A model generated the notes under the pieces. It was not told the DNA's origin and ran no database searches. It was given only the letters and a program-made list of their open reading frames with translations. Positions 54 to 12,642 of a stretch of DNA of 16,710 nucleotides are shown here, one piece after another. The stretch covers positions 1-16,710 of the forward strand of contig DFGW01000255.1 in the NCBI GenBank assembly GCA_002372465.1, read 5' to 3'. The number at the start of each line of letters is the position of its first letter. Position 1 is the first letter of the stretch. Origin of the DNA: Butyrivibrio sp. UBA3740. Lineage in GTDB: Bacteria > Bacillota > Clostridia > Lachnospirales > Lachnospiraceae. The translations under genes were made by a program, and so were the position numbers.

Positions 54-80
54 TACCAAACAAAAACTTTTTCATAATAT

Positions 81-104
81 GCCAGGTAAGGAAGCTTACC
101 TGGC
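81..104 (-). terminator. Hairpin after the whiA/Crh-like operon, probable terminator
   Basis: A perfect 10-bp inverted repeat with a 4-nt loop (GCCAGGTAAG / CTTACCTGGC) lies 37 nt after the stop codon of the Crh-like gene, where the operon should end. No U-run follows directly on the minus strand; the first T5 run is about 14 nt further on. It may therefore be a weak intrinsic terminator, a Rho-aided end or an mRNA-stabilising hairpin. No other gene lies in 1-141. Confidence 0.5.
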
Positions 105-141
105 ATCCTCCCTTTTTATAGGGTCTTTTTTATTTTCGGGA

Positions 142-405
142 TTAGTTCTGTCCATTTCCCTGAAGGAAATTCTCTAAATCGGCAACTGCTGCCTCTTCAT
201 CAGTTCCCTCTGCGATAACTGTAACTGCCTCTCCTGAAGTGAGATTAAGTGTCATCATACCCATGATGCTCTTTGCGTTCACTTTCTTGGACTGAGCCTC
301 GATATGAACAGTGCTCTCGTACTTGCTTGCAAGCTGTACAAGCTCAGCAACAGGTCTTGCTTCCAATCCTCTTGGCAGCTTGATCTCGATAGATTTTGTG
401 ATCAT
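142..405 (-). CDS. Crh-like HPr-family protein with Glu at the PTS site (position 15) and intact Ser46
   Basis: An 87-residue HPr-fold protein. In ordinary HPr, His15 in GLHARPA carries the phosphate from enzyme I; here the motif is GLEARPV and position 15 is Glu (codon GAA). It should not relay phosphate to PTS transporters. The HPr kinase target region NAKSIMG is fully conserved, with Ser46 at the canonical position. This is the logic of Bacillus subtilis Crh, which has Gln15 and Ser46 and acts as a CcpA corepressor when phosphorylated. Gene order also fits, since crh follows rapZ-yvcK-whiA in B. subtilis. It is the last gene of the hprK operon, 19 nt after whiA, with the best ribosome binding site in the window (AAGGAGG). 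Inferred role: HprK-dependent carbon signalling without transport. Whether this lineage has CcpA cannot be seen here. Confidence 0.93.
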   Translation of the reverse strand: MITKSIEIKLPRGLEARPVAELVQLASKYESTVHIEAQSKKVNAKSIMGMMTLNLTSGEAVTVIAEGTDEEAAVADLENFLQGNGQN

Positions 406-424
406 AATATCCTCCTTAGAACCT

Positions 425-1369
425 CTAACCTCTTATCCTGTCCGCAAGCTCCGACAGCTTGCGAAGTCTGTGATTAACTCCGGACTTCCCTACCGGGGGA
501 TCCAAAAAACCTCCCAGCTCTATCAGTGTTGAATCCGGATGTTCCAGTCTTACTTCTGCCATCTCCCTTAAGCTGTCCGGCAGTTTCCTGAATCCGTAAT
601 TATCCCTGATATAGGTTATATCCTCTATCTGCTTGGTGGCTGCATTCACTGTCTTGGTGATGTTTGCGACCTCGCAATTGACTCGTCTGTTAATGGAATT
701 TCTCATCTCCTTGAGAATCCTTAAATTCTCAAGATTCATAAGACTGACAGGCGCCTCCATGATGTTAAGAAGATCTACTATTCCGGCGCCCTCCTTGACA
801 TAGAGGACATGGTACTTCTTTCTTTGAACAATTCTGGCTTCCGTGTCGAAGCTCTCTATCAGCTCTTGCAGCTGATATGCCTGACCTTCGCTGGTGCAGA
901 CAAACTCCAGATGATACCCCTTATTGGGATCACTGATTGAGCCTATACACAAAAACGCATCCCGAAGGAAAGCTCTTTTGCAGCAGGAGTTCTTGGTGAT
1001 AATAGGACTTGCTCCGTCCTCGAACTTCCTGATGCTGCCGTCTGACTCCATAAGCCTTGTGGCCTTTAAAAGCGCCGTCAGCTCCTCTTTATCCTTAAGA
1101 ACCGGCCTGTAGATTCGGCCTGCGCTCTTAATGTCCGGCACATCCTCCAGAAAGCTAGTAACTATATTAAATGCTTTTTTTATTAATGTAAAGAACTTTC
1201 TAAGCGCCAGGCTGTTTTCCGGCTGCAGATACAGCACCATTTCGCCGTCCTCATCCGCCCCCACATAGCCAATACAGGTTATTATGGCAGCCAGCTCTGC
1301 CAGCTGACAGTGGCGGGATGAACCGATGCGCTTTGAGAGTTCCTCTTTTACTTCTGAGGAAAAAGACAT
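425..1369 (-). CDS. whiA: WhiA, DNA-binding regulator of sporulation/division family
   Basis: A 314-residue protein of normal length for WhiA. The family joins an N-terminal fold derived from LAGLIDADG homing endonucleases to a C-terminal helix-turn-helix. The LAGLIDADG-like halves are recognisable at about residues 20-40 (CQLAELAAIITCIGYVG) and 135-150 (LRDAFLCIGSISDP), without the acidic catalytic signature, so it should bind but not cut DNA. The C-terminal HTH is about residues 225-312 (STLIELGGFLDPPVGKSGVNHRL). In Streptomyces WhiA is a sporulation regulator; in Firmicutes it affects chromosome segregation and division. It starts 3 nt after the rapZ stop. The yvcK/mgfK gene that separates rapZ from whiA in B. 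subtilis is absent here. Confidence 0.96.
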   Translation of the reverse strand: MSFSSEVKEELSKRIGSSRHCQLAELAAIITCIGYVGADEDGEMVLYLQPENSLALRKFFTLIKKAFNIVTSFLEDVPDIKSAGRIYRPVLKDKEELTALLKATRLMESDGSIRKFEDGASPIITKNSCCKRAFLRDAFLCIGSISDPNKGYHLEFVCTSEGQAYQLQELIESFDTEARIVQRKKYHVLYVKEGAGIVDLLNIMEAPVSLMNLENLRILKEMRNSINRRVNCEVANITKTVNAATKQIEDITYIRDNYGFRKLPDSLREMAEVRLEHPDSTLIELGGFLDPPVGKSGVNHRLRKLSELADRIRG

Positions 1370-1372
1370 TTC

Positions 1373-2242
1373 TCACTTAGCCTCTTTGACGTCCCTGTGG
1401 AAAAGCTTAAGCCCAAAGTCTCCCTTGGTTTTCTCAAGCCGGTCATAAATCTCGTTTGCGATGGTTACACTTCTGTGCTGGCCTCCCGTACATCCAATGG
1501 CCACCACCAGCTGATACTTGCCCTCCTGAACATATCCGGGGATCAGGAAGGTCAGCATATCTGTCAGTTTATCCACAAACTCCCCACAGGCAGGGAAGCT
1601 CTTTACATAGTCCTGAACAGGCTTATCGTTGCCTGTCTGATGCTTGAGTTCATCGATATAATATGGGTTTGGAAGAAATCTGACGTCAAATACAAGGTCC
1701 GCGTCAGATGGAATACCATGCTTAAAGCCAAAGGACATGATGTTCACCATAAGAGAATTGTATTCTGCATTCTCTACAAAGATCTTGTCCAGCTCCCTCT
1801 TGAGTTCTCTGGTAAGAAGCGTCGAAGTATCGATGACATAATCAGCCTTCTTCTTGATCTCTGCCAGAACCTCCCTTTCCTTGGCAATGCCATCCTCAAG
1901 CCTGTCTCCCACGGCATTCATAGGGTGGATCCTTCTTGACTCCTTATATCTCTTTATAAGAACTTCGTCACTGCAATCCATGAAAAGAATTTCAACCGGA
2001 ATTCCCTTTTCCTTCATGGAATCAATGATGCCGGAAACCCCTTCAAAACTCTGGCCTGCTCTGGCGTCTATACCAAGAACCACCTTGGTGATTCCTGAAT
2101 CGGGCATGGTTATAAGCTCTGTAAACTTCTCTATCAGAGAAACCGGCAGATTATCAACGCAGTAAAATCCTGCGTCTTCAAGCATATGTATGGCAGTGGC
2201 CTTCCCTCCGCCACTCATTCCGGTCACGATGACAAATCTCAT
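1373..2242 (-). CDS. rapZ: RapZ/YvcJ-family nucleotide-binding protein (RNase adapter family)
   Basis: A 289-residue protein from the ATG at 2242, normal for RapZ/YvcJ. That start follows GGAG by 9 nt and is one base after the murB stop. A longer reading from TTG at 2257 overlaps murB and is less likely. The N-terminal half has a P-loop, GMSGGGKAT (residues 8-16), followed by the family segment FYCVDNLP. The C-terminal half carries GCTGGQHRSV (250-259), typical of the domain that binds small RNA in E. coli RapZ and has been linked to UDP-GlcNAc sensing. Oddity: the residue after the P-loop lysine is Ala15, where Ser or Thr normally helps hold Mg-nucleotide; Thr16 follows. In Firmicutes the YvcJ role is not well settled. 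Its place after murB fits a link to cell-wall precursor supply. Confidence 0.95.
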   Translation of the reverse strand: MRFVIVTGMSGGGKATAIHMLEDAGFYCVDNLPVSLIEKFTELITMPDSGITKVVLGIDARAGQSFEGVSGIIDSMKEKGIPVEILFMDCSDEVLIKRYKESRRIHPMNAVGDRLEDGIAKEREVLAEIKKKADYVIDTSTLLTRELKRELDKIFVENAEYNSLMVNIMSFGFKHGIPSDADLVFDVRFLPNPYYIDELKHQTGNDKPVQDYVKSFPACGEFVDKLTDMLTFLIPGYVQEGKYQLVVAIGCTGGQHRSVTIANEIYDRLEKTKGDFGLKLFHRDVKEAK

Positions 2243-2243
2243 A

Positions 2244-3155
2244 TCAGAATTCTCCAACCATTATAACTTCCGGCTCAAGGGTAACTCCAAAAGAAGAATA
2301 AACCCTATCCTTAACTTCCTTTATAAGTGCATATATATCTGAGGAAGTAGCATTTCCTTTATTGACTACAAAGCCGCAGTGCTTCTCTGAAACCTGTGCG
2401 TCTCCTACACTAAAGCCTCTTAGCCCCGCGTCCTCTATAAGCTTTCCGGCAAAGTAACCCTCAGGCCTTTTGAAGGTGGATCCTGCACTTGGATACTCCA
2501 GAGGCTGCTTCTCTTTGCGCTTAAGGGCAAGCTCTTTCATTGTCTCAGAGATCTCTTTTTCTGAGCCCTTTTTCAGCTTAAGAAGGGCAGAAAGAACTAT
2601 ATAACCTCTTCCCTTTATGGCGCTATTCCTGTAACCAAATTCCATGTTGTCATTGCTGAGGGTCATGAACTCGCCCTCAGGGGAGAGCACATCCACCTGC
2701 TCTGTGATCATCTTCATCTCGCCGCCATAGGCACCGGCATTCATTATCATGGCTCCGCCTATGGTTCCGGGTATTCCGGCAGCAAATTCAAAGCCTGTAA
2801 GGCTGTTATCCCTGGCAAAGGCTGCAATGCCTGAGTTAAGTGCTCCTGCCTGGGCAAGGATCTTATTTTCTCCCACGAGACTTATGCTATCAAGTCTCGT
2901 GGGAGAAATCATAACTCCTTCAAAGCCCGCATCCGAAACCAGGAGATTACTACCGTTTCCGATGATAAAGTAAGGAAGACCAAGCTTTCTGATAAGCAGA
3001 GCTACCTTCTCAAGCTCCTGTACGTTTCCCGGGCATAAAAACAAGCTGGCAGGCCCACCGGTTCTAAACGTGGTGTGCCTGCTCATTGGTTCGTCTATAT
3101 AGATATTTTCTTCGGATACTATATCCTTTAAATAAGCAATGATCTCGCTGTTCAA
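2244..3155 (-). CDS. murB: UDP-N-acetylenolpyruvoylglucosamine reductase
   Basis: MurB is a cytosolic FAD enzyme that uses NADPH to reduce UDP-GlcNAc-enolpyruvate to UDP-MurNAc, the second committed step of peptidoglycan precursor synthesis. It has 303 residues, with FAD-site motifs IIGNGSNLL (64-72) and GIPGTIGGA (127-135), the catalytic serine segment SAGSTFKRP (Ser226) and LEPEV near the C-terminus (Glu294). It looks like the shorter type II form. The start is unusual: the codon at 3155-3153 is TTG, with GGGG 7 nt upstream. The next in-frame ATG (codon 24) would remove conserved N-terminal sequence, and a stop lies just upstream in frame, so TTG is the best choice. It begins 13 nt after the glucokinase stop. 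A perfect 17-bp inverted repeat lies within codons 83-97. Confidence 0.97.
   Translation of the reverse strand: MNSEIIAYLKDIVSEENIYIDEPMSRHTTFRTGGPASLFLCPGNVQELEKVALLIRKLGLPYFIIGNGSNLLVSDAGFEGVMISPTRLDSISLVGENKILAQAGALNSGIAAFARDNSLTGFEFAAGIPGTIGGAMIMNAGAYGGEMKMITEQVDVLSPEGEFMTLSNDNMEFGYRNSAIKGRGYIVLSALLKLKKGSEKEISETMKELALKRKEKQPLEYPSAGSTFKRPEGYFAGKLIEDAGLRGFSVGDAQVSEKHCGFVVNKGNATSSDIYALIKEVKDRVYSSFGVTLEPEVIMVGEF
2867..2908. repeat. Perfect 17-bp inverted repeat inside murB
   Basis: Left arm TTTCTCCCACGAGACTT (2867-2883), loop of 8 nt (2884-2891), and a right arm (2892-2908) that is its exact reverse complement. In the murB mRNA this would fold into a very stable hairpin over codons 83-97 (from Ile-Ser-Pro-Thr-Arg-Leu to Ser-Leu-Val-Gly-Glu). 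No T-run follows on either strand, so it is not a normal terminator. The protein here has the length expected for MurB, so it does not look like a simple insertion. Confidence 0.9.
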
Positions 3156-3168
3156 ATCCTGTCCCCAA

Positions 3169-4104
3169 TCAACTGATTACTAACTTGGCTGCTCCGTATA
3201 CTCCGGCGTCGTTACCAAGCTTTGCAAGAGCAAACTTAGCGTCCTTACATCCCGGGAATACGTACTTCTCAAAGCTTGGCTTAAGAAGATCAAAGAGCAT
3301 ATCTCCAGCCTTTGAAACGCCGCCACCAAGAACGATGATCTCAGGATTAACTACTGATGCCACAGCTGCGATGCCCTTTCCAAGGTAATAGCCGTACTGT
3401 TCTGCAGCCTTTACTGCAAGCTTGTCGCCGTTCTTGGCTGCATCAAAGATATCTCTGCACTCAAAGTCCTTGTTTCTGAGAACGCTGTCCTCATCTGTGG
3501 AAGCAAGGAGTCTCTTTGCAAGTCTTACTGCACCTGTTGCGCTGGCATACATCTCAAAGCAGCCGTGATTTCCGCATCCGCAGGTCTCAGGCTCGTCATC
3601 CACAAGGTGAAGGTGCCCGATCTCTCCGCCTGATCCCTTAGCACCTGTGAGAATCTTGCCGTCGATGATGATTCCGCCGCCAACGCCGGTTCCAAGAGTT
3701 ACAAGGCACATGTTGGGATAGCCCTGTCCGCCGCCCTTCCAGGCCTCGCCCAGAGCTGCCACATTGGCATCATTCCCTGCCTTTACAGGGAGCTTCAAAG
3801 CTGAATGAAGCTCGTTGACTACATTAACCTTCTCCCATCCAAGGTTTACTGCCTGGTGGCAAAGGCCGTCAGCATTAACAGCGCCGGGAACACCTACGCC
3901 TGCTCCTACAACCTGAGTATCTTCTATATTTTTTTCCTTCATCTTGGCTCTGATGGAAGCTGCGATATCAGGAATGATCTGTGATCCGTGATCCTCTGTT
4001 CTTGTGGGGATCTCCCAGAAATCCACCCTCTCACCTGTCTCTGTAAGAAGTCCGATCTTAACTGTAGTTCCTCCAACATCTGCACCAAATACGTATCTTG
4101 TCAT
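3169..4104 (-). CDS. glcK: ROK-family glucokinase
   Basis: A 311-residue ROK (repressor, ORF, kinase) protein lacking the DNA-binding domain of ROK repressors, so it is a sugar kinase. It should phosphorylate intracellular glucose to glucose 6-phosphate with ATP. Visible motifs are the N-terminal phosphate-binding loop DVGGTTVK (residues 9-16), GNDANVAALGE with the catalytic aspartate, the glycine-rich LGTGVGGGI, and the ROK zinc/signature region GEIGH...CGCGNHGCFE, where a histidine and three cysteines bind zinc. It lies between hprK and murB, 33 nt after hprK. Placing glucokinase with HPr kinase and a Crh-like protein suggests joint control of glucose entry and carbon signalling. Specificity for glucose is inferred from the family; N-acetylmannosamine or another hexose cannot be excluded. 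Confidence 0.92.
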   Translation of the reverse strand: MTRYVFGADVGGTTVKIGLLTETGERVDFWEIPTRTEDHGSQIIPDIAASIRAKMKEKNIEDTQVVGAGVGVPGAVNADGLCHQAVNLGWEKVNVVNELHSALKLPVKAGNDANVAALGEAWKGGGQGYPNMCLVTLGTGVGGGIIIDGKILTGAKGSGGEIGHLHLVDDEPETCGCGNHGCFEMYASATGAVRLAKRLLASTDEDSVLRNKDFECRDIFDAAKNGDKLAVKAAEQYGYYLGKGIAAVASVVNPEIIVLGGGVSKAGDMLFDLLKPSFEKYVFPGCKDAKFALAKLGNDAGVYGAAKLVIS

Positions 4105-4137
4105 GTTTGCACCCTCTCTTTTATATGTTGGTTATTA

Positions 4138-5088
4138 TCAATCTTCGTCATCGTCGTCCTCAGAACGTCTCCTTGCAAGAGAGTTCTGAACTCTGTTGTA
4201 AAGCTCCTGAGCTGCGTTGTAGCCCATGGCCTTCTGTCTGTGGTTAACCGCTGCAGACTCACAGATGACAGCCAGGTTTCTTCCGGGACGGATAGGAATC
4301 CTGTGGCACACTACCTTGTTTCCAAGATACTCTGTGTGCTCCTCCTCAAGGCCAAGTCTGTCATATTCCTTGTCCTTGTCCCAGTCCTCAAGCTTGATAA
4401 CAAGGTCGATGGTCTGAGTCTCCCTTACGCTTGATACACCGTAAAGAGTCTTAACATCGATGATACCAACACCTCTCATCTCAATGAAGTGTTTGGTTAT
4501 ATCAGGGGCAGATCCGATAAGAGTCTCTTCACTTACCCTTCTGATCTCTACTACGTCATCTGAAACAAGACGATGCCCTCTCTTTATGAGCTCGATAGCT
4601 GTCTCAGACTTACCGATTCCGCTCTCACCGGTAATAAGAACGCCGACACCGTATACATCAACCAAAACACCGTGGATTGAAATGCATGGAGCCAGTTTGA
4701 CATTCAGCCATCTTATGATCTCGGCCATAAATGAGGATGTGGATTTCTTGGTGATAAGAACAGGAACCTTCTCCTCAACGGCAATCTTTACAAACAGGGG
4801 ATCTGGAGCCAGTTCACGGCAGAAAACAACTCCGGGAATATCAAAAGAAAGGAATTCCCTGTACATCTTCTCCTTTTTGTTCTCAGGCAGTGACTCCATA
4901 TAGGTATACTCAACGAATCCTATGATCTGAAGTCTTGTGGCCTCAAAGTGCTCAAAGTAGCCTGCCAGCTGAAGCGCCGGCCTGTTGATGTCCGGCTGGC
5001 TTATCCTGATCTTCTTGATATCCAGTTCCGGAGTGAGGTTCTCAAGCTTCATTTTCTCAATGATAGTTTTCAAACTTACACTAGACAT
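4138..5088 (-). CDS. hprK: HPr kinase/phosphorylase
   Basis: HprK phosphorylates Ser46 of HPr and Crh when glycolytic intermediates are high, and removes the phosphate when inorganic phosphate is high. The 316-residue protein has an N-terminal domain (about 1-130), His139 in SIHG, the P-loop GESGIGKS (154-161), SDD with the catalytic aspartates (177-178), the family signature EMRGVGIIDV (203-212), Arg244 in YDRLG, and RPGRN (267-271). All expected catalytic residues are present. The C-terminus ends in an acidic tail, EDDDDED, which is longer and more charged than I expect. The start is supported by AAGGAG 6 nt upstream. It is the first gene of its operon, with a promoter just upstream. One likely substrate, the Crh-like protein, is the last gene of the same operon. 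Confidence 0.97.
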   Translation of the reverse strand: MSSVSLKTIIEKMKLENLTPELDIKKIRISQPDINRPALQLAGYFEHFEATRLQIIGFVEYTYMESLPENKKEKMYREFLSFDIPGVVFCRELAPDPLFVKIAVEEKVPVLITKKSTSSFMAEIIRWLNVKLAPCISIHGVLVDVYGVGVLITGESGIGKSETAIELIKRGHRLVSDDVVEIRRVSEETLIGSAPDITKHFIEMRGVGIIDVKTLYGVSSVRETQTIDLVIKLEDWDKDKEYDRLGLEEEHTEYLGNKVVCHRIPIRPGRNLAVICESAAVNHRQKAMGYNAAQELYNRVQNSLARRRSEDDDDED

Positions 5089-5127
5089 GGGAATCTCCTT
5101 TGTAAAATCTGTATTTACGACGCCTAA

Positions 5128-5156
5128 ATAATATCACAGATATGTAGCTTGTTCAA
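5128..5156 (-). promoter_or_regulatory. Promoter of the hprK operon
   Basis: On the minus strand, TTGAAC (5156-5151), a 17-bp spacer and TATTAT (5133-5128) form a good housekeeping sigma promoter 40 nt upstream of the hprK start. It begins 7 nt after the uvrC stop codon. No terminator separates uvrC from hprK, so read-through from uvrC is also possible. Confidence 0.6.
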
Positions 5157-5162
5157 ATATTA

Positions 5163-7034
5163 TCAAGGCGTTTGATGAAAGAAATCATAAATCTGCCGCG
5201 CCACATTTTCGGGGATGTCCGGCACCTTGGAAAGCTCCTCTACAGAAGCATTTCTTATGTCCTCTATGGTCTCAAAGCTCTTCATCAAAGCCTTCCTTCT
5301 TGCGGGTCCGATTCCCGGAATATCGTCCAAAGAGCTCTTTACCTGGGCTTTACTTCGAAGGGACCTGTGGTACTCTATGGCAAATCTGTGGGCTTCATCC
5401 TGTATTCTTGTTATGAGCTTAAAACCTTCTGACCTGGTGTCTATAGGAAGCTCTACATTATTATAATATAGGCCTCTGGTCCTGTGATTGTCGTCCTTTA
5501 CCATTCCGCAGACAGGAATGTTTATTCCAAGTTCCTCAAGGACCTGTAAACATATGTTGACCTGCCCCCTTCCGCCATCCATAAGGATAAGGTCAGGAAA
5601 CTTGGTAAAAGAGCCGTACTTAGCATCTATGTCTCTGACCTGAAGCTCATGTCTTTCTTCTATTCCATGAAGCAGCCTTCTGGTGAGGACCTCATGCATG
5701 CAGGCGTAGTCATCAGGGCCTGCCACGGTCTTTATCCTGAATTTGCGGTAGTCACTCTTTTTAGGTTTACCTTTTTCGTAGACCACCATGGAACCTACAT
5801 TGGCAAAGCCACTGATATTGGAAATATCATAGGCTTCCATTCTGTTAAGCCCCTTGATGCCAAGAAGATTTTCTATCTCTTTGACCGCTCCTATGGTACG
5901 GCCTTCTTCTCTCTTTATCCTCTCCTTGTCCTTGGACAGCACCAGCTCTGCGTTCTGGGCTGCCAGCTCCATGAGTTTTTCCTTCTGGCCTCGCTCGGGA
6001 ACATTTATATAAACCCTGCTGCCCTTTCGCTGAGTAAGCCACTTCTCAATTATCTCCATGTCCTCAATGGGCTCAGGAAGAAGAAGCTGCCTGGGGATGA
6101 AAGGTGTTCCGGCATAGAACTGTTTAACGAAGTTTCCAAGGATCTCCGACTGGGGATTTTCCGAAACATGAGTCATATAAAAATGCTCTCTTCCGATAAG
6201 GCGCCCGTCCCTTACAAAGAATACCTGTACAACCGCATCATTATCATCGGAGGCAATGGCTACAATGTCCTTATCCTCCATAGAAGAATCCGTCATCTTC
6301 TGTTTCTGGGCAACCACCTTTACCGATGCGATAAGGTCCCTGTATTTGGCTGCATTCTCAAAGTCCAGTTCCTCGGAAGCAGCCTCCATCTTGGCCTGAA
6401 GGTCTTTTAATATGACTGCATAGTTGCCATTTAAAAAGTCCAGTGCCATGTCGATCCTGGCCCTGTAATCCTCCTTGGAGACCTCTCCGGTACATGGACC
6501 GCAGCACTGCTTCATGTGATAGTTAAGACACGGGCGCTCTGCACCTATATCCCTCGGCAGAACTCTGTTGCAGGTCCGAAGACCGTATAATTTATTGATA
6601 AGCTCAATGGTATCCTTAACTGCCGCTGCGCTGGTGAAGGGTCCAAAGTACCTGGACTTGTCCTTCTTCATGAGCCTGGAGAAAAGGATCCTTGGATATT
6701 CTTCAGACACTGTAACCTTAATATAGGGATAGGTCTTGTCATCCTTAAGAAGGGTGTTATATCTGGGGCTGTGCTCCTTGATCAGGTTATTCTCAAGGAC
6801 CAGGGCCTCCAGTTCTGAATCCGTAACAATATATTCAAACCTTGCAATCTGCTTGACCATTCGGTCAATCTGAGGTCCACGGCCTATGTTTGAACGAAAA
6901 TAAGACCTTACACGGTTGTGAAGGTTTATGGCCTTTCCCACGTACATTATGGTGTCAGCCTCGTCATGCATTATGTAGACTCCCGGTTTATTGGGGAGCT
7001 TTTTTAATTCTTCTTTTATATCAAATGCCGGCAT
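5163..7034 (-). CDS. uvrC: UvrC, excinuclease ABC subunit C
   Basis: UvrC makes both incisions around bulky DNA lesions in nucleotide excision repair, recruited by UvrB. The 623-residue protein has the GIY-YIG nuclease domain (about 13-95, with GVY at 18-20 and YVG at 31-33), a cysteine cluster matching the reported iron-sulfur site (Cys155, Cys169, Cys177/178, Cys181), a UVR domain (about 205-242), an RNase H-like nuclease domain with Asp403, Asp486 and His549, and a C-terminal double helix-hairpin-helix (about 570-620, [12 protein letters not shown]). The ATG at 7034 matches where the family begins ([14 protein letters not shown]). It has no clear ribosome binding site: the closest candidate, GGTGG, is 12 nt upstream and lies in the arm of a large hairpin. 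Its position before hprK is common in clostridia. Confidence 0.97.
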
Positions 7035-7040
7035 ATAACA

Positions 7041-7096
7041 ATTAAACCACCAATCCGGGAACTTTTAAAGAGGATGCTCCCGGCCGGTGGTTTAAT
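7041..7096 (-). terminator. Large two-tier hairpin between the PTS operon and uvrC
   Basis: The outer arms are a perfect 11-bp match (ATTAAACCACC, 7041-7051, with GGTGGTTTAAT, 7086-7096). Inside them is a second perfect 6-bp stem (CCGGGA 7055-7060 with TCCCGG 7078-7083), separated by a small internal loop, around a 17-nt loop. On the minus strand the 3' arm ends in TTTAAT and then TTGTTAT, a weak U-rich tail. It is placed to end the PTS operon 30 nt after its last gene. It also ends only 6 nt before the uvrC ATG and holds the only possible ribosome binding site of uvrC, so it may control uvrC translation instead or as well. Confidence 0.6.
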
Positions 7097-7120
7097 ATGA
7101 TGAGGAAAAAAAGGATACAA
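7092..7120 (-). promoter_or_regulatory. Weak candidate promoter for uvrC
   Basis: On the minus strand, TTGTAT (7120-7115), a 17-bp spacer and TATTAA (7097-7092) could initiate transcription within the 5' arm of the hairpin. If so, transcripts from this promoter would lack most of that arm and escape the hairpin, unlike read-through from the PTS operon. The boxes are only fair matches. Confidence 0.25.
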
Positions 7121-7126
7121 TTTATA

Positions 7127-7384
7127 TCACAGGTTACCCTGCAGATACCGTTCTATTTCGCCTGCTGCCTTATCTTCGTCTTCGCCGTCAAAAGTAAGGG
7201 TAAGAGTCTGGCCCTGTTTAACCCCAAGACCAACAAGCCCAAAGACGTGCTTGGCGTCAACTCTCTTACCGTTCCCCTCTGCGGTTATCTCGCAGGCAAA
7301 GTTTTCAGCAAGCTTTATAAGTCCACTGGCGGGAAGTGCATGCACCCCCTCCGGGTCTTTCACTGTGTAGCAGATCTGCTTCAT
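7127..7384 (-). CDS. HPr-family protein of the PTS operon: His15 kept, Ser46 replaced by His
   Basis: An 85-residue HPr-fold protein. The active-site motif is GVHALPA: His15, which accepts phosphate from enzyme I, is present, but the usually invariant Arg17 is Leu. The HPr kinase target region reads DAKHVFG in place of NAKSIMG, so position 46 is His (codon CAC) and Ile47-Met48 are Val-Phe. HprK should be unable to phosphorylate it. Its ATG overlaps the dehydrogenase stop (ATGA), so the two are translationally coupled. Inferred role: a dedicated phosphocarrier for the EIIA, EIICB and regulator of this operon, insulated from HprK control. Loss of Arg17 could reduce transfer, so a purely regulatory or weakened role is the alternative. 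Enzyme I is not in the window. Confidence 0.88.
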   Translation of the reverse strand: MKQICYTVKDPEGVHALPASGLIKLAENFACEITAEGNGKRVDAKHVFGLVGLGVKQGQTLTLTFDGEDEDKAAGEIERYLQGNL

Positions 7385-8643
7385 ACTTCCACTCCGAAGT
7401 GCTCAAAAAGAATCTTCTCTGCTTCAGGGTTCCAGAGTCCAGCGTTCTTTTTGCAGCACTCGTCGAGCTTCTTGAACAAAGGATCACTTTCACCGAGTTT
7501 TTCAAAATCATCTATAGCTGTAAGAGGCATTTCGATCTGTGTGTAGATCAGCTTCTTACCGCCGGGAATGCTGGGCAGGTTGCAGGTTGCATCAGCAGCT
7601 GCATCAAGTCCGCCAACATGAGTTACCATAACTGAAGGATTGATCTCACCCTTGGCAGCAAGCTGAAGAGCCTCTAAGAGGTCATCATTGTTACCGCCTG
7701 TTGTTCCAAGGATGTGGGTGCTGGTGTAATGAGCGTTGTACAGGTTGATCTCTGACTTAAACTGATTGTCTGTAGGACCAGCAAAGAAATTCATGCAGCC
7801 ATCAAAAGCCAGAAGTCTGTCGCCCATCTCGGCAACGCTTCTTACTGGAACATAGACAAATACGTCATCGTAGCCGTGTCCCTCTGTGATCTCCATGAGC
7901 TTTTCCTCTGCATCAGCTGCTGATGAGTTGAAGTAGATAAGCTCAACGCCCTTTTCTTTTGCAAACTCAGGGCTGATTACAGCTGCTGCCCTTGCAAGCT
8001 TTGCATCGTCGAGGTCAGTAACCACGATCCTCTTGGGCTTATTCTCAAATCTAAGGCCGTAGCTTACTGCTCCAAGGCCCATAGGTCCACATCCACCCAT
8101 GATAAGGATGTTTCCACCCTCCTTGGTACCCATGGCATGGTTGTAGTTCTGCTTGTTTGTATGATAATTGGCATGATAGCCACCGATAATGCAGCTCATT
8201 GGCTCTCCAAGGGATGCCTGGTAGAAGCTCTCTCCGTTATAAGGCAAAAGAGCATCCAGCTCCATAACTTCGTGAGGCATGATGCAGTAAGTAGCATCTC
8301 CGCCGCAGAAGCGATATGAATATCCGGGAGAATCAAGCTTTCCCTGGTAGTTAAGTGCCGGCTGAAGTGCCCACTTATCTCCTACCTTGTACTTATCCTT
8401 CCACTTTTCTCCGACCTCTACGATAACTCCGGAGCACTCGTGTCCTGTGATTATAGGATTGACGTCAATGTCCTGAGGTGCTCTCTTATGTTTCTTTCCC
8501 TGCTTAGCCAGCTTGTAGGTTGACATGCAGATACTGTCACTTATTACCTTAACAAGGATCTCATCATCCTTTATCTGTGGAAGCTCAAACTCCTCGAGCC
8601 TTAAATCCATTTCACCGTACATTCTTACTGCTTTAGTCTTCAT
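7381..8643 (-). CDS. Zinc-dependent MDR-family dehydrogenase, likely sugar- or polyol-phosphate
   Basis: A 420-residue medium-chain dehydrogenase. Likely zinc ligands are Cys39 (SICMSTYK), His68 with Glu69 in GHECSGVIVEVG, and Glu147 in LGEP. The four-cysteine structural zinc lobe of classic alcohol dehydrogenases is absent. The Rossmann domain has GGCGPMGLG (183-191) and Asp210 at the end of beta-2, favouring NAD(H) over NADP(H). It resembles sorbitol dehydrogenase and L-sorbose-1-phosphate reductase relatives. In this operon it stands where mannitol-1-phosphate 5-dehydrogenase (MtlD, an unrelated family) would be, so I infer that it oxidises the hexitol phosphate made by the PTS. The exact substrate cannot be read from sequence. 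The ATG at 8643 is chosen because GGAGG lies 8 nt upstream; an upstream ATG at 8703 would overlap the EIIA gene. Confidence 0.85.
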   Translation of the reverse strand: MKTKAVRMYGEMDLRLEEFELPQIKDDEILVKVISDSICMSTYKLAKQGKKHKRAPQDIDVNPIITGHECSGVIVEVGEKWKDKYKVGDKWALQPALNYQGKLDSPGYSYRFCGGDATYCIMPHEVMELDALLPYNGESFYQASLGEPMSCIIGGYHANYHTNKQNYNHAMGTKEGGNILIMGGCGPMGLGAVSYGLRFENKPKRIVVTDLDDAKLARAAAVISPEFAKEKGVELIYFNSSAADAEEKLMEITEGHGYDDVFVYVPVRSVAEMGDRLLAFDGCMNFFAGPTDNQFKSEINLYNAHYTSTHILGTTGGNNDDLLEALQLAAKGEINPSVMVTHVGGLDAAADATCNLPSIPGGKKLIYTQIEMPLTAIDDFEKLGESDPLFKKLDECCKKNAGLWNPEAEKILFEHFGVEV

Positions 8644-8668
8644 TGTTTTTTCCTCCGAAAGCGCAAGT

Positions 8669-9088
8669 TTATCCTTCAAATAGGTTACTGATCTCATCTT
8701 CATTTAATGTAAGAAGATTCTCTACTCCTGCCTTGTCCGAGAAGGTCATGGCGATCTTCTGCAGCACATCAAGATGCTCATCTCCAACCGCTGCTATTCC
8801 GATAACGACCTTTACCTTCTCGCTGGCGCCCCAGTCCTGTCCCTCAGGGAAGGTCATAAGCACCAGACCTGTCATTTTAATATGCTTCTTAGCCTCCTCA
8901 ATACCGTGAGGAATTGCTATCTCATTCCCAATATATGTATTAAACACCTTCTCTTTATCCAGCATTGCCTGAGTATAATACTCATTTGTGTAGCCCTGGG
9001 ACTGGAATATATCTCCTATCTTTCTGATGATGTCCTCCTTATTACCGGGCTTTTGATTGATAAAGATGTTTTTCTTCTCAAGTATCAT
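8669..9088 (-). CDS. mtlF: PTS EIIA component, mannitol/fructose type
   Basis: A 139-residue stand-alone EIIA of the mannitol class. The phosphorylated histidine is His61 in GNEIAIPHG, and the second conserved active-site histidine is His105 in GDEHLDVL. It takes phosphate from an HPr and passes it to Cys384 of the EIIB domain encoded two genes upstream. The start is the ATG at 9088, preceded by GGAGG at 7 nt; the upstream extension to 9127 runs back into mtlR and is not supported. It lies 16 nt after mtlR and 25 nt before the dehydrogenase. The order A-R-F-dehydrogenase matches firmicute mannitol operons. Confidence 0.93.
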   Translation of the reverse strand: MILEKKNIFINQKPGNKEDIIRKIGDIFQSQGYTNEYYTQAMLDKEKVFNTYIGNEIAIPHGIEEAKKHIKMTGLVLMTFPEGQDWGASEKVKVVIGIAAVGDEHLDVLQKIAMTFSDKAGVENLLTLNEDEISNLFEG

Positions 9089-9104
9089 TGTGTAACCTCC
9101 GATT

Positions 9105-11141
9105 TTATAAGACACTGAGCTGCTCACTAAAATAACCCTTTAGTATTTCCTGCAGCTTATCCTGTATAGCCTCTTCATCTCCTTCTTTCAGAGATCCCAG
9201 AAACTCCTCGTCCTCGATGATGGCGCTTGAAACTCTGCCAAGCATCTCTGCATTCTGTTTTCTGTTTTCATCCACCGGCATTGTCATACACAGCACTGCC
9301 TGTATTCCATATAGCGCCTGATCCGTAAAAGCCCTTTCGCCATCCAAACCTGCTGTGACTATCTGGCACTCTTTTACCGCCTTGCTTCTGCAGTGGAAAA
9401 GAGCTATCCCGATCTCCGGGAAAAGCTGACTCATTACCTGCTCTCTGGACTTGATGTCCGCCGCAAGGACTGCGGCCGCTTTTGAGCTGTCAGTCATTTC
9501 AGATGCCAAGAGCCTTATAAGCCCCTCCAGTGTAGTGTCCTTTGAAACTGTCAGATGATGATACCTTCGAATAACACCTTTAACTCTGGTGATGATGTTA
9601 TTGATCTCATCCAGCTGTCTCGTAAAGTCATTATTCTCCTGCCTTGCCGGCATAGATGCGTATTCATCGATCTTAACGCTTATCTGTAAAACATCCCTCT
9701 GAGTGATCAGAGGATTAACCAGGCAATAATCCACTCCCAGGTCGTCCACATTGATACTGGAGATAAAGAAATCTGTTCTTGATACTATGTGCTGAGTGAT
9801 CTCATCACTTCCGTATGCCTTAAGGACGATGTCCCAGTCAGCGAACTCACGCTTTAGCTTGGCCATCATAAGCTGCGCAACACCAAAGCCGCTGGCACAG
9901 ATAACACCTATGGTTACCGTGCGTCTCTTTTTCTTTCGTGACTCGATCCTCTCTTTTGCAGCACCAAGATGCATTGCAAGATATCCAATCTCTGCCTCAT
10001 TGGGTACCAGACCTGTCTTTTCTGTTATTACCTCTGCAGCCCTCTCGCAGTCAGAAAATACGTCAGGATATTCCTGCTTTATCTCCGAAAGCAAAGGGTT
10101 ACTTATTGTCATGTCATTCTTCATGCGATAAAGTGCAGGCTCCAGATGAACCATGAGACCTCTGATAAAGTCATCCTCACAGCGGAGTTCCCTGGCAAAA
10201 TCAGGATCCAGAACATCTATCATCGCATCTATAATTCCCATCAGCTCTCCGGTATCAATCCCGCTTTGGCCGATGGCTTCATTTGTGTAGTTTAGCTTTG
10301 CTCCCTTTATGTGGAGCAGAATGTTGTTTACTTCCGATTCCGGAAGCTGAATTGAGAACTCCTCCTCAAGGGCAGTAGCGATGTTCTTGGCTATGTCATA
10401 CCCGTTGTCGTATCTGGCATCGTAAGTCTCTTCCGATACAAGTTCTCCCTGCCTTATCCTCTCAACCGCAACAGCCAGATGGACCAAAAGCCCAACATAG
10501 GCATCGTTTGTCAGAAGACGAAGATATGGCTCCTTTGTTCTCTCCAGAACCTCTTCCACCTCAGACAAGACCTCTTCATTCATAAGAAGATAGATATTGT
10601 CTCCGGCTTCAGATTCCTTGTGTGTTTTTAGATTTTCAGTGACAAAGCGCTGAAGTGCAGTTCTATAGCTCTTTTCACTTCCGGAAAGTGCGATCCCGTA
10701 GCCGGGCTTCCTGATAATCTCAAGATGACACTCCTTTGCCCAGCCGCTTATTGCCTCCAGGTCAGTGGATATTGTCGCTTCACTTACTCCGAACATGTCG
10801 CTGTAGTAAAAGAGCTTTTGAGGTTCTCTGTTTCGTAAAAGCTCCAGCTTTAAAAGGTTTCTTCTCTTCTCCTTGTCGGAGACCACCTGCTCCTTTCTGG
10901 CCTTGACCATCATAAGGAGCTCTTCCTTCTTTTCTCTGTCACCTTCGATCTGGCTTCCCTCACCCTTTTTCCGAACAAGAGTCAGGTCATAGCTTTTGAG
11001 GATGCTTCCGATGTAGTCCGCTTCCCTTAAAATAGTACGTTTACTTACACCCAGAGCATCAGCCACTTCACTGTCAGTGACTGGTTGCTCTGCGCCAAGC
11101 AAATATATTAAGATCTGTCTTATGCGTGGTGTAAGTTCCAT
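9105..11141 (-). CDS. mtlR: MtlR-type PRD transcriptional activator with EIIB and EIIA domains
   Basis: A 678-residue regulator with the full MtlR architecture: N-terminal HTH (about 5-65), a second Mga-like HTH (85-165), PRD1 (about 190-295, His221 and His277), PRD2 (about 305-405, His332 and His391), an EIIB(Gat)-like domain with Cys415 in VICASGFG, and an EIIA(Mtl)-like domain (about 540-678, candidate His583 in IALFHCRS). All four PRD histidines and the EIIB cysteine are kept, so phosphorylation control should be intact. In B. subtilis MtlR, HPr-dependent phosphorylation of PRD2 activates, and phosphorylation of the EIIB-like cysteine through the mannitol EII inhibits. Here it is the second gene, 13 nt after EIICB, and probably controls its own operon. 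The ribosome binding site is weak (AGAAAG). Confidence 0.92.
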   Translation of the reverse strand: MELTPRIRQILIYLLGAEQPVTDSEVADALGVSKRTILREADYIGSILKSYDLTLVRKKGEGSQIEGDREKKEELLMMVKARKEQVVSDKEKRRNLLKLELLRNREPQKLFYYSDMFGVSEATISTDLEAISGWAKECHLEIIRKPGYGIALSGSEKSYRTALQRFVTENLKTHKESEAGDNIYLLMNEEVLSEVEEVLERTKEPYLRLLTNDAYVGLLVHLAVAVERIRQGELVSEETYDARYDNGYDIAKNIATALEEEFSIQLPESEVNNILLHIKGAKLNYTNEAIGQSGIDTGELMGIIDAMIDVLDPDFARELRCEDDFIRGLMVHLEPALYRMKNDMTISNPLLSEIKQEYPDVFSDCERAAEVITEKTGLVPNEAEIGYLAMHLGAAKERIESRKKKRRTVTIGVICASGFGVAQLMMAKLKREFADWDIVLKAYGSDEITQHIVSRTDFFISSINVDDLGVDYCLVNPLITQRDVLQISVKIDEYASMPARQENNDFTRQLDEINNIITRVKGVIRRYHHLTVSKDTTLEGLIRLLASEMTDSSKAAAVLAADIKSREQVMSQLFPEIGIALFHCRSKAVKECQIVTAGLDGERAFTDQALYGIQAVLCMTMPVDENRKQNAEMLGRVSSAIIEDEEFLGSLKEGDEEAIQDKLQEILKGYFSEQLSVL

Positions 11142-11154
11142 TTGATTTTCTTTC

Positions 11155-12558
11155 TTATGCCTTCAGCTCTTTTGCCAGTGCATCATACTCAGGTGCTGAC
11201 ATGAAGTTACTGATGGTGATGATCCTTGCATTTGGAGCGCTCTTCTTTGCTCTTCCTGCAAGCTCCTGATGTGTTACAACTATCTGAGCATCAGCAGGTA
11301 TCTCTGAAACTGAAGCATGCTTAACTTCAATATCTGTTCTTCCTGCCTCTGTCAGTTTTTTCTTAAGTACTGTAGCACCCATTGCTGATGATCCCATTCC
11401 TGCGTCACAAGCAAATACGATGTGCTTTACATCTGCTGCATTTGTCTTTACAAGGCTGTCAGCTGCTGTTGTAACTTCGCTTGCTGCGACGCCTTTAGAC
11501 TCTGCCTTCATTTCCTTCATCTGTGCTGTAGAGTCCTCAAGGCTCTGCTTTGAGTTTGAGAGTCTTACGATAGGAGCTGCGATTACGAATGAAACTGCTG
11601 CAGCAACTACTACAGAAAGAAGTACCATGAATGTTGATCCCTTAGGAGCCATTCCTACATAAGCAATGATTGATCCAGGTGATGGAGGACCTGCAAGACC
11701 AAGCTTGAACAGTGTGTTGAAGATCATTGCTGCTACTGAACCACCGATTGTTGCAAGAAGAAGAAGTGGATTCATGAGCACATATGGGAAGTAGATCTCG
11801 TGGATTCCACCAAGGAGATGAACGATAAGTGCTCCGGGTGCTGAATCCTTTGTTACCTTATCCTTTGAGAACAGCATGTAAGCAAGAAGTACACCTGTAC
11901 CTGCGCCAGGGTTTGTCTCGATCATGTAGAAGATAGACTTTCCTGCACTTGCAACCTGCTCTGCTCCAAGAGGAGTGAAGATACCGTGGTTGATAGCGTT
12001 ATTAAGGAAAAGAACTTTAGCTGGCTCAACAAATACTGAAACCAGTGGAAGTATGTTGTTGTTAACAAGTACTGCAACGCCTGCGTTAAGGAATGCAAGC
12101 ACTCCGCCCATGAATGGGCCGATTACGTAGTAGCCTACGATAGCAAGTAAAAGACCAAGGATACCAACTGAGAAGTTGTTTACAAGCATCTCAAATCCTG
12201 ATGGGATCTTACCCTCAACAGCCTTGTCGAATTTCTTGATAACCCAGCCGGCAAGTGGTCCTGCGATCATTGCTCCCATGAACATAGTGTACTCTGTTCC
12301 GCAGATAACACCGATTGTCATGATCGCACCCATGACTGCTCCGCGAGCTCCCCCTACCATTTTTCCTCCCTGGTATGCTATGAGAACTGGCAAAACGTAT
12401 GTCAACATTGGGCCAACGATTGAGCTAAGTTGTGCGTTTGGAAGCCATCCACTGTCGATGAACAGAGCAGTGAGAAGACCCCATGCGATAAATGCGCCGA
12501 TATTTGGCATTACCATTCCGCTAAGGAAACGGCCGAAGCTTTGAATCTTTTCTTTCAT
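11155..12558 (-). CDS. mtlA: Mannitol-type PTS EIICB membrane transporter
   Basis: A 467-residue membrane protein. The EIIC domain (about 1-340) has several hydrophobic segments and family motifs: NNAINHGIF (His191) and GGIHEIYFPYVLM (His253, Glu254). A polar linker (about 335-375) leads to the EIIB domain with the phosphocysteine Cys384 in FACDAGMGSSAMGA. There is no fused EIIA; that is a separate gene in the operon. It takes up and phosphorylates a hexitol, most likely mannitol. Neighbours leave some doubt, because the usual MtlD is missing. The start at 12558 (MKEKIQSFGRFLSG) has AGGGG upstream and matches the family N-terminus; the in-frame extension to 12639 lies in the leader and does not look like protein of this family. 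Confidence 0.94.
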   Translation of the reverse strand: MKEKIQSFGRFLSGMVMPNIGAFIAWGLLTALFIDSGWLPNAQLSSIVGPMLTYVLPVLIAYQGGKMVGGARGAVMGAIMTIGVICGTEYTMFMGAMIAGPLAGWVIKKFDKAVEGKIPSGFEMLVNNFSVGILGLLLAIVGYYVIGPFMGGVLAFLNAGVAVLVNNNILPLVSVFVEPAKVLFLNNAINHGIFTPLGAEQVASAGKSIFYMIETNPGAGTGVLLAYMLFSKDKVTKDSAPGALIVHLLGGIHEIYFPYVLMNPLLLLATIGGSVAAMIFNTLFKLGLAGPPSPGSIIAYVGMAPKGSTFMVLLSVVVAAAVSFVIAAPIVRLSNSKQSLEDSTAQMKEMKAESKGVAASEVTTAADSLVKTNAADVKHIVFACDAGMGSSAMGATVLKKKLTEAGRTDIEVKHASVSEIPADAQIVVTHQELAGRAKKSAPNARIITISNFMSAPEYDALAKELKA

Positions 12559-12630
12559 TTGGATTTCCCCTTCCAAGCTAAACTGATAGGTAACTCGAGG
12601 CACGTCTGCCATATGAGTTTCTTGAATATC

Positions 12631-12642
12631 CGAATGCATTCG
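12631..12642. repeat. 12-bp palindrome in the leader of the PTS operon
   Basis: CGAATGCATTCG is a perfect palindrome about 10-21 nt after the predicted transcription start, between promoter and EIICB gene. It could be an operator or an incidental palindrome. The rest of the roughly 93-nt leader shows no clear terminator or antiterminator pair. Confidence 0.35.

Follow-up and report, generated by a model that had tools for sequence, protein, structure and literature searches.

The window, a 16,710-nucleotide stretch of a Butyrivibrio sp. UBA3740 contig, encodes two HPr-like proteins on either side of hprK, one with only the HprK site (Ser46) and the other with only the PTS site (His15), and this raises the question of whether the organism has divided HPr function between them. 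In the Bacillus model, as set out in PMC13130090, one HPr carries PTS phosphate and loses its carrier role once its Ser46 has been phosphorylated by HprK; Crh plays an accessory part. The original prediction was that this genome had divided HPr function into a sensor cotranscribed with hprK and a transport carrier immune to HprK. Since the genome also has a two-site HPr, we favor, with a probability of roughly 70%, added specialization rather than a complete split: the window would encode a Crh-like signalling HPr and an operon-specific HPr paralogue. The evidence comprises sequences, gene order, conservation and co-occurrence, from which every phosphorylation event, co-transcription and all partners are inferred.

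Both reading frames lay on the minus strand where they had been placed, with hprK between them, and the residues called at positions 15 and 46 were correct. The first protein (142 to 405), numbered by gap-free alignment to Bacillus subtilis Crh (GLQ15ARP, AKS46IMG), reads GLE15AR17P and AKS46IMG and thus has Glu15, Arg17 and Ser46. It matches PF00381 with 101.4 bits (Pfam cut-off, 23), its top match among solved structures is B. subtilis Crh (70 bits), followed by a Thermoanaerobacter HPr (68.9 bits), and several near homologues carry the JGI name "catabolite repression HPr-like protein." NF010354, which we take to be the model for Crh, was the top one among nine NCBIfam models listed, at 94.1 bits against a cut-off of 123; this threshold is a score cut-off and not a biological criterion, and the protein is claimed as Crh-like.

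Its gene is the last of a minus-strand run that comprises hprK (4138 to 5088, encoding both domains of HPr kinase/phosphorylase, PF02603 and PF07475; TIGR00679, 377.2 bits versus a cut-off of 240), a ROK-family glucokinase gene (3169 to 4104; TIGR00744, 298.7 versus 260.35), murB (2244 to 3155; NF010480, 363.9 versus 259), rapZ (1373 to 2257; NF003828, 360.3 versus 244) and whiA (425 to 1369; TIGR00647, 267.9 versus 44.1), so that the HPr gene lies immediately 3' of whiA with rapZ close by. Throughout, neighboring genes overlap or lie no more than 33 bp apart; the run looks like one transcription unit, and the HPr gene is probably co-transcribed with hprK. A hairpin at 79 to 106 (minus strand; -24.5 kcal/mol for a 64-nucleotide piece, z -4.42), 35 bases 3' of the gene, is a possible terminator; no T-run is immediately adjacent to it.

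The suggestion that Glu15 might be common at this gene position in Lachnospiraceae was borne out. In a set of 41 genus genomes, sampled from a larger group and including the window's own, residue 15 of the whiA-linked protein is Glu in 40 and Asp in 1, and Ser46 is present in all 41; among 120 homologues listed out of 7263, all with at least 79% identity, residue 15 is Glu in 116, Asp in 2 and Gln in 2. With a median dN/dS of 0.055 over the 559 usable pairs out of 820, the gene is under purifying selection. These data support its identification as a Crh-like protein that, judging from its residues, retains Ser46 alone of the two sites. It would not be expected to accept phosphate from enzyme I, and it has kept the KSIMG motif of HprK substrates; given these two features and the probable co-transcription with hprK, phosphorylation of its Ser46 would report the glycolytic state.

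The second protein (7127 to 7384, minus strand) belongs to a different unit, separated from hprK by uvrC (5163 to 7034, minus strand; TIGR00194, 642.9 bits versus a cut-off of 285.45). Its gene closes a mannitol-type PTS operon, also on the minus strand, with genes for a mannitol-type EIICB (mtlA-like, 11155 to 12639; NF011663, 645.3 versus 589), an mtlR-like PTS-regulated transcription factor with an HTH, PRDs and an EIIA-like domain (9105 to 11141), an EIIA of the mannitol/fructose type (mtlF-like, 8669 to 9127; PF00359, 110.7 bits) and a zinc-type alcohol dehydrogenase (7381 to 8703). The last of these, presumed to be a sugar-alcohol phosphate dehydrogenase, exceeded the cut-off of none of the NCBIfam models listed in the profile search, and its stop codon overlaps the start codon of the HPr gene (ATGA). 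A strong hairpin between the HPr gene and uvrC (7041 to 7096, minus strand; -31.3 kcal/mol for a 70-nucleotide piece, z -6.72) is the likely end of the mtl transcript.

Numbered by gap-free alignment to Escherichia coli HPr (GLH15TRP, AKS46LF), this mtl-linked protein reads GVH15AL17P and AKH46VFG, i.e., His15, Leu17 and His46, and it matches PF00381 with 79.2 bits (cut-off, 23) and TIGR01003 with 72 bits, above the cut-off. The proposed alignment of positions 15, 17 and 46 yielded residues that recur in relatives. The prediction had overlooked that Arg17, which is important in the HPr active center, is replaced by Leu. This substitution may impair phosphotransfer, and it weakens a plain reading of the protein as a transport carrier. 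Mtl-linked copies were found in 11 of the 41 genus genomes, many of these assemblies being incomplete, and all 11 have His15 and Leu17 and none has Ser46 (position 46 is His in 8, Asp in 2 and Lys in 1). Likewise, His15 and Leu17 are present in 24 of 24 homologues (E ≤ 1e-10) and Ser46 in none (22 His, 1 Arg and 1 Asn). A separate role for a phosphorylatable His46 was considered and rejected, given the Asp, Lys, Arg and Asn found there in relatives. Purifying selection acts on this gene as well (median dN/dS, 0.14, from 25 usable pairs out of 55; saturation affected most of the rest).

In a tree of HPr proteins, the six mtl-linked rows form one group (SH-aLRT 99), nested within a 32-row clade (SH-aLRT 99) that holds 26 of the 27 rows with His15 and without Ser46; absence of Ser46 is thus a trait common to its clade of enzyme-I-linked HPrs, and because of this placement an HprK brake at position 46 would not be expected. 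In the same tree, built on 85 columns, B. subtilis Crh and the whiA-linked proteins did not group together, the forks there being weak. The mtl-linked protein most likely passes phosphate from enzyme I via His15 to the EIIA encoded at 8669 to 9127, perhaps also to the MtlR-like regulator, and Leu17 suggests that the protein has adapted to a partner of its own.

Leu17 also invites another explanation, namely, that the mtl-linked protein is a former phosphocarrier that selection now keeps in a regulatory or adaptor role, for example one acting on the MtlR-like protein. The residue is invariant in the 24 homologues and the 11 genus copies, versus Arg17 in 22 of 22 HPrs near enzyme I in other genera, and a precedent exists in E. 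coli HPr, which binds an MtlR unrelated to the MtlR-like protein here. Two papers address HPr in connection with the mannitol operon (PMC5320558 and PMC6763467). Nevertheless, we consider such a change of function rather unlikely, with His15 retained in every mtl-linked copy, enzyme I present in 10 of 10 relatives having a copy, and the PTS operon being complete, with the HPr gene overlapping its dehydrogenase gene.

The division of HPr function in this genome between one sensor and one HprK-immune carrier fares worse. Locally, the residues and positions of the two window proteins agree with it: a Ser46-only protein is encoded with hprK, and a His15 protein without Ser46 is encoded in a PTS operon. 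It is the genome-wide claim that lacks support. Among five PF00381 places found in a profile search of the same assembly, one, on contig 158, encodes a third HPr; it has His15, Arg17 and Ser46, as in the canonical protein that the prediction itself had allowed for elsewhere in the genome; furthermore, both sites are present in 31 of 32 HPrs located within 3 kb of enzyme I in 32 genus genomes. Given these two observations, the mtl-linked protein is an extra paralogue and not the general carrier, and its detection in a minority of the genus genomes, many of them incomplete, speaks against division too. In spite of a strict division in some other genera (see below), we regard it as improbable here. 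Decay in one degenerate genome or an assembly error, for which only the draft state of the assembly (263 contigs) speaks, is rejected as extremely improbable for either substitution, since matching residues turn up in 40 more genomes for the whiA-linked protein and in 10 more for the mtl-linked one, and since both genes have dN/dS values well under 1.

The proposed search for enzyme I found none in the window's assembly, which is 76.65% complete. Among genomes at least 90% complete, which are not phylogenetically independent samples, an HPr with His15 and Arg or Leu at 17 was present in 43 of 43 enzyme-I-positive and 0 of 3 enzyme-I-negative genomes. A Ser46 HPr-like protein was present in 65 of 65 genomes, and HprK was found in 25 of 25 searched. 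Hence, the presence of His15 tracks enzyme I, and Ser46 persists with or without it. Two of three incomplete enzyme-I-negative genomes, the window's own (77%) and G075 (66%), do have His15 HPrs and represent either assembly gaps or exceptions.

Although the proposed division lacks support in this genome, it fits some other Lachnospiraceae genera. HPrs were read in 24 genomes of 24 other genera, drawn from 60 and chosen for completeness (97 to 100%) and partly for having few HPr matches, so that every full-length one could be covered. Ser46 is absent from 21 of the 22 HPrs near enzyme I in these genomes. Of the full-length proteins, 24 had both His15 and Ser46 (5 of them without Arg17), 26 had His15 only, 23 had Ser46 only and none had neither. 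Six of the 24 genomes have enzyme I and HprK and no full-length two-site HPr, a proportion that probably overstates that of the family, because the choice of genomes favored a strict split. Among named Lachnospiraceae-like relatives found via an HPr of the Ser46-free type, a two-site HPr was present in 9 of 9, and a strict split was seen in none.

We tentatively raise the possibility, somewhat doubtful in view of this selection of genomes, that the two HPr inputs reside on separate proteins across much of Lachnospiraceae and that Butyrivibrio has gone part of the way back to the classical arrangement. The enzyme-I-linked carrier, with Lys, Arg, Ala or Thr at position 46, would escape HprK, whose dedicated Ser46-only targets would be the Crh-like HPr linked to whiA and short mini-HPrs without the His15 loop. 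At the main carrier, PTS sugar uptake would then no longer be coupled to catabolite signalling by HprK. Among full-length HPrs the separation is complete in 6 of the 24 sampled genera; elsewhere, a second, cdaR-linked HPr has both sites. Butyrivibrio combines a two-site HPr beside enzyme I with an HPr in its mannitol operon that lacks Ser46.

In the literature searched, mostly titles and the beginnings of abstracts and with subscription journals thinly covered, we found no description of Ser46-free HPrs beside enzyme I or of such a split in Lachnospiraceae. Phosphorylation of serine 46 is mentioned in an evolutionary survey (PMC2405797), and a term count returned no instance of "Crh" as a word in its main text. 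If many gut and rumen Lachnospiraceae do split the sites, Bacillus could not serve to predict their catabolite repression and sugar uptake, and natural single-site proteins would make it possible to test why HPr and Crh coexist. A natural experiment on this question is that His15 occurs together with enzyme I, while Ser46 persists regardless.

A Crh match is also present in Thermoanaerobacterium saccharolyticum, according to PMC3526391. Like the Crh proteins of B. subtilis and Geobacillus, the first window protein is an HPr relative without His15 and with Ser46 within AKSIMG. Its gene follows whiA with rapZ upstream, as does crh in B. subtilis. In contrast, those proteins have Gln15, whereas Glu is found here and some relatives have Asp, Gln or Ala at this position, and several related genera have a Ser46-free HPr beside enzyme I. 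A further difference is that 0 of 14 genomes had a LacI-type protein above the CcpA model cut-off (TIGR01481), a strict threshold that 2 of 14 control genomes pass; weaker LacI-type matches occurred in 13 of the 14, and a motif inspection of part of these for CcpA residues matching Glu15 gave nothing firm. The second protein shares the PF00381 fold and His15 with the general Firmicutes HPr (PtsH) but differs in Leu17 and His46 and in being encoded in a sugar operon instead of beside ptsI; in having His46 in place of Ser46, it also differs from HprK-regulated Firmicute HPrs. It is closer in one respect to FPr/FruB and DhaM, the operon-dedicated HPr paralogues of E. coli, in that it would serve one sugar system, yet unlike them it is free-standing, is 85 residues long and has Leu17 in its active center.

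Both HPr genes of the window are where the original prediction had placed them on the minus strand, as open reading frames (positions 142 to 405 and 7127 to 7384) whose products are HPr proteins by Pfam. With residue numbering set by gap-free alignment to solved structures, the whiA-linked protein at 142 to 405 has, as predicted, Glu15 in its PTS site (GLEARP) and Ser46 in its HprK site (NAKSIMGMM), and the mtl-linked protein at 7127 to 7384 has His15 (GVHALP) and His46 (DAKHVFGLV); the same sites read GLQARP and AKSIMG in Bacillus subtilis Crh and GLHTRP and AKSLF in Escherichia coli HPr. A leucine replacing the active-centre Arg17 in the mtl-linked protein went unmentioned in the original prediction. 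While the observation is thereby confirmed, its interpretation, a division of HPr function between the two proteins, is partly supported: the residue pattern holds, but an HPr with both sites is also encoded in the assembly, and the HPr near enzyme I (EI) is a two-site protein in the genus.

From high to low coordinates, the minus strand encodes an mtlA-like EIICB (11155 to 12639), an mtlR-like regulator (9105 to 11141), EIIA (8669 to 9127), the zinc-type dehydrogenase of this mannitol-type operon (7381 to 8703), the mtl-linked HPr, the start of whose gene overlaps the stop of the preceding gene, and then UvrC, HprK, a ROK glucokinase, MurB, RapZ, WhiA and the Glu15 HPr. One hairpin (7041 to 7096; −31.3 kcal/mol, z −6.72) separates the mtl-linked HPr gene from uvrC, and another (79 to 106; −24.5 kcal/mol, z −4.42) follows the Glu15 gene; the former was not listed by a simple terminator scan, since its 13-base loop exceeds the length permitted by that scan. 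We read this arrangement as a predicted mtl operon whose last gene encodes the HPr, followed by a separate predicted run that begins at uvrC or hprK and closes with the Glu15 gene. The dehydrogenase, a zinc-type alcohol dehydrogenase, scored above no listed NCBIfam cut-off, leaving the sugar alcohol used uncertain.

A canonical HPr had been considered possible elsewhere in the genome and was indeed found: among five PF00381 places in the assembly, two of them in the window, contig 158 encodes an HPr with His15, Arg17 and Ser46, adjoining a gene for a YbbR (CdaR-type) protein. The other two are short HPr-like proteins, one of 76 residues on contig 244 (L004:1456-1686, beside thiI/mtaB) and one with an uncertain start on contig 248 (L005, around 1501 to 1620, beside asnA; 21.7 bits versus a Pfam cut-off of 23). 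Both are without the His15 loop and keep the HprK motif (DAKSIMG or DAKSILG), and such mini-HPrs could be further HprK targets. A close homologue, P0147, has a high-confidence structure prediction (mean pLDDT, 93.3), whose first 18 PDB matches consist entirely of HPr or Crh proteins (query TM, 0.67 to 0.78); in the protein database, each of the 7999 candidates that were scored passes 1e-6, 120 of them being listed. No PF05524 match to EI was found in this assembly, which is 76.65% complete; only a terminal piece of a PEP-utiliser (PF02896) protein was recovered, where a contig ends, and we take it to be pyruvate phosphate dikinase.

HPr sequences were compared across 41 genomes from the genus, host included (drawn from a larger group; 22 are ≥90% complete and ≤5% contaminated). 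The whiA-linked HPr has Glu15 in 40 and Asp15 in 1, with Arg17 and Ser46 in all. The mtl-linked HPr, found in 11, always has His15 and Leu17, with His (8), Asp (2) or Lys (1) at position 46; uvrC lies within 170 bases of it in nine of these, as in the window, and was not seen beside it in G085 and G086. The third class, the cdaR-type HPr, has His15 and Ser46 in 38 and Asp15 and Ser46 in 3. For 32 of the 37 EI genes above the cut-off, an HPr gene starts within 3 kb (none for the other 5), and 31 of these 32 HPrs have His15 and Ser46, the remaining one (G073) having His15 and Ala46. Therefore, within this genus the HPr beside EI has both sites, and the mtl-linked HPr is an extra.

Beyond the genus, 24 genomes from 24 other Lachnospiraceae genera (97 to 100% complete) were chosen from 60, by completeness and in part by having few HPr matches. 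A whiA-linked HPr is present in 19 (none seen at whiA in 5), with Glu (12), Asp (5), Gln (1) or Ala (1) at position 15 and Ser46 throughout, which bears out the suggestion that Glu15 is common at this position in the family. Among 30 EI matches, 22 are accompanied by an HPr gene that starts within 3 kb and 8 are without one nearby; 21 of the 22 HPrs are without Ser46 (Lys, 9; Arg, 8; Ala, 3; Thr, 1). The full-length HPrs comprise 24 with His15 and Ser46 (5 without Arg17), 26 with His15 only, 23 with Ser46 only and none with neither. A strict split, in which EI and HprK are present and no full-length HPr has both residues, occurs in six genomes (G011, G013, G050, G051, G056 and G058; two short HPr-like matches in G050 are excluded), and 16 genomes encode one two-site HPr or several; G003 and G040 have neither EI nor His15. 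On a bold reading, the two sites would be separated in much of the Lachnospiraceae. As a side observation, the cdaR-type HPrs of G003, G040, G051, G073, G092 and G096 have Asp, Gln or Lys at position 15 and keep Ser46, and four of these six genomes have no EI match; that of G003 was classed by sequence, its cdaR neighbour not being seen.

Named genomes were scanned for the EI-linked type with patterns requiring His15 and Arg17 and leaving position 46 free. At least 532 places were confirmed, and the 80 best of them were analysed further. Ser46 occurs in 5 of the 79 fully read (L342, L344, L350, L377 and L408), the 80th (L336) being partial with Lys46; EI lies within 1.5 kb at 61 of the 79, and 59 of these 61 are without Ser46. 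Represented here are Blautia luti, Fusicatenibacter saccharivorans, Clostridium fessum, Faecalicatena faecalis and Dorea sp. D27 and, outside the family, for example, Bifidobacterium and Treponema. In ten of these genomes that were searched whole (50 of 73 matches read), nine of them Lachnospiraceae-like, a His15 HPr without Ser46 was found in every one, as was an HPr with both residues; the strict split is therefore not general.

The presence or absence of EI across genomes provides a natural experiment on His15. In a set of 65 genomes divided at 90% completeness, all 43 of the more complete genomes with EI encode an HPr that combines His15 with Arg or Leu at position 17, and none of the three without EI (G003, G040 and G096) does (P = 6.6e-5 under independence, a guide only, as the genomes are related). 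Below 90%, His15 is present in 16 of 16 genomes with EI and in two of three EI-negative ones (the host assembly and G075). A Ser46 HPr-like protein was found in all 65, and HprK in all 25 genomes searched.

In a tree of 104 HPrs, with columns 15, 17 and 46 retained, six mtl-linked rows form one group (SH-aLRT, 99), nested in a clade with 26 of 27 His15, Ser46-free rows (SH-aLRT, 99); 54 of 101 forks are weak and drawn open, and B. subtilis Crh was placed without clear grouping. Given this nesting, Ser46 was probably already lacking before the protein became linked to the mtl operon. In a 397-genome family sample, the 29 top matches of the mtl-linked HPr outside the genus all have Arg17, and the Leu17 form was seen only in the host genus and in database homologues; judged by sequence, Leu17 is the distinctive trait of this protein.

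Most likely, the Glu15 protein would report HprK activity in a Crh-like manner, and the mtl-linked HPr would serve as an operon carrier beyond the reach of HprK at position 46. We call Glu15 odd because the acidic H15D change in Thermoanaerobacterium HPr is argued to disrupt CcpA binding (PMC3526391). No LacI-type protein above the curated CcpA cut-off was found in any of 14 Lachnospiraceae genomes; the Ser-P partner may thus differ from CcpA, and HprK signalling in the family may run through it. Unphosphorylated Crh is reported also to inhibit MgsA in Bacillus, and ribose repression in Geobacillus is proposed to be driven by Crh, not HPr (PMC13130090); roles of this kind would suit a Ser46-only protein.
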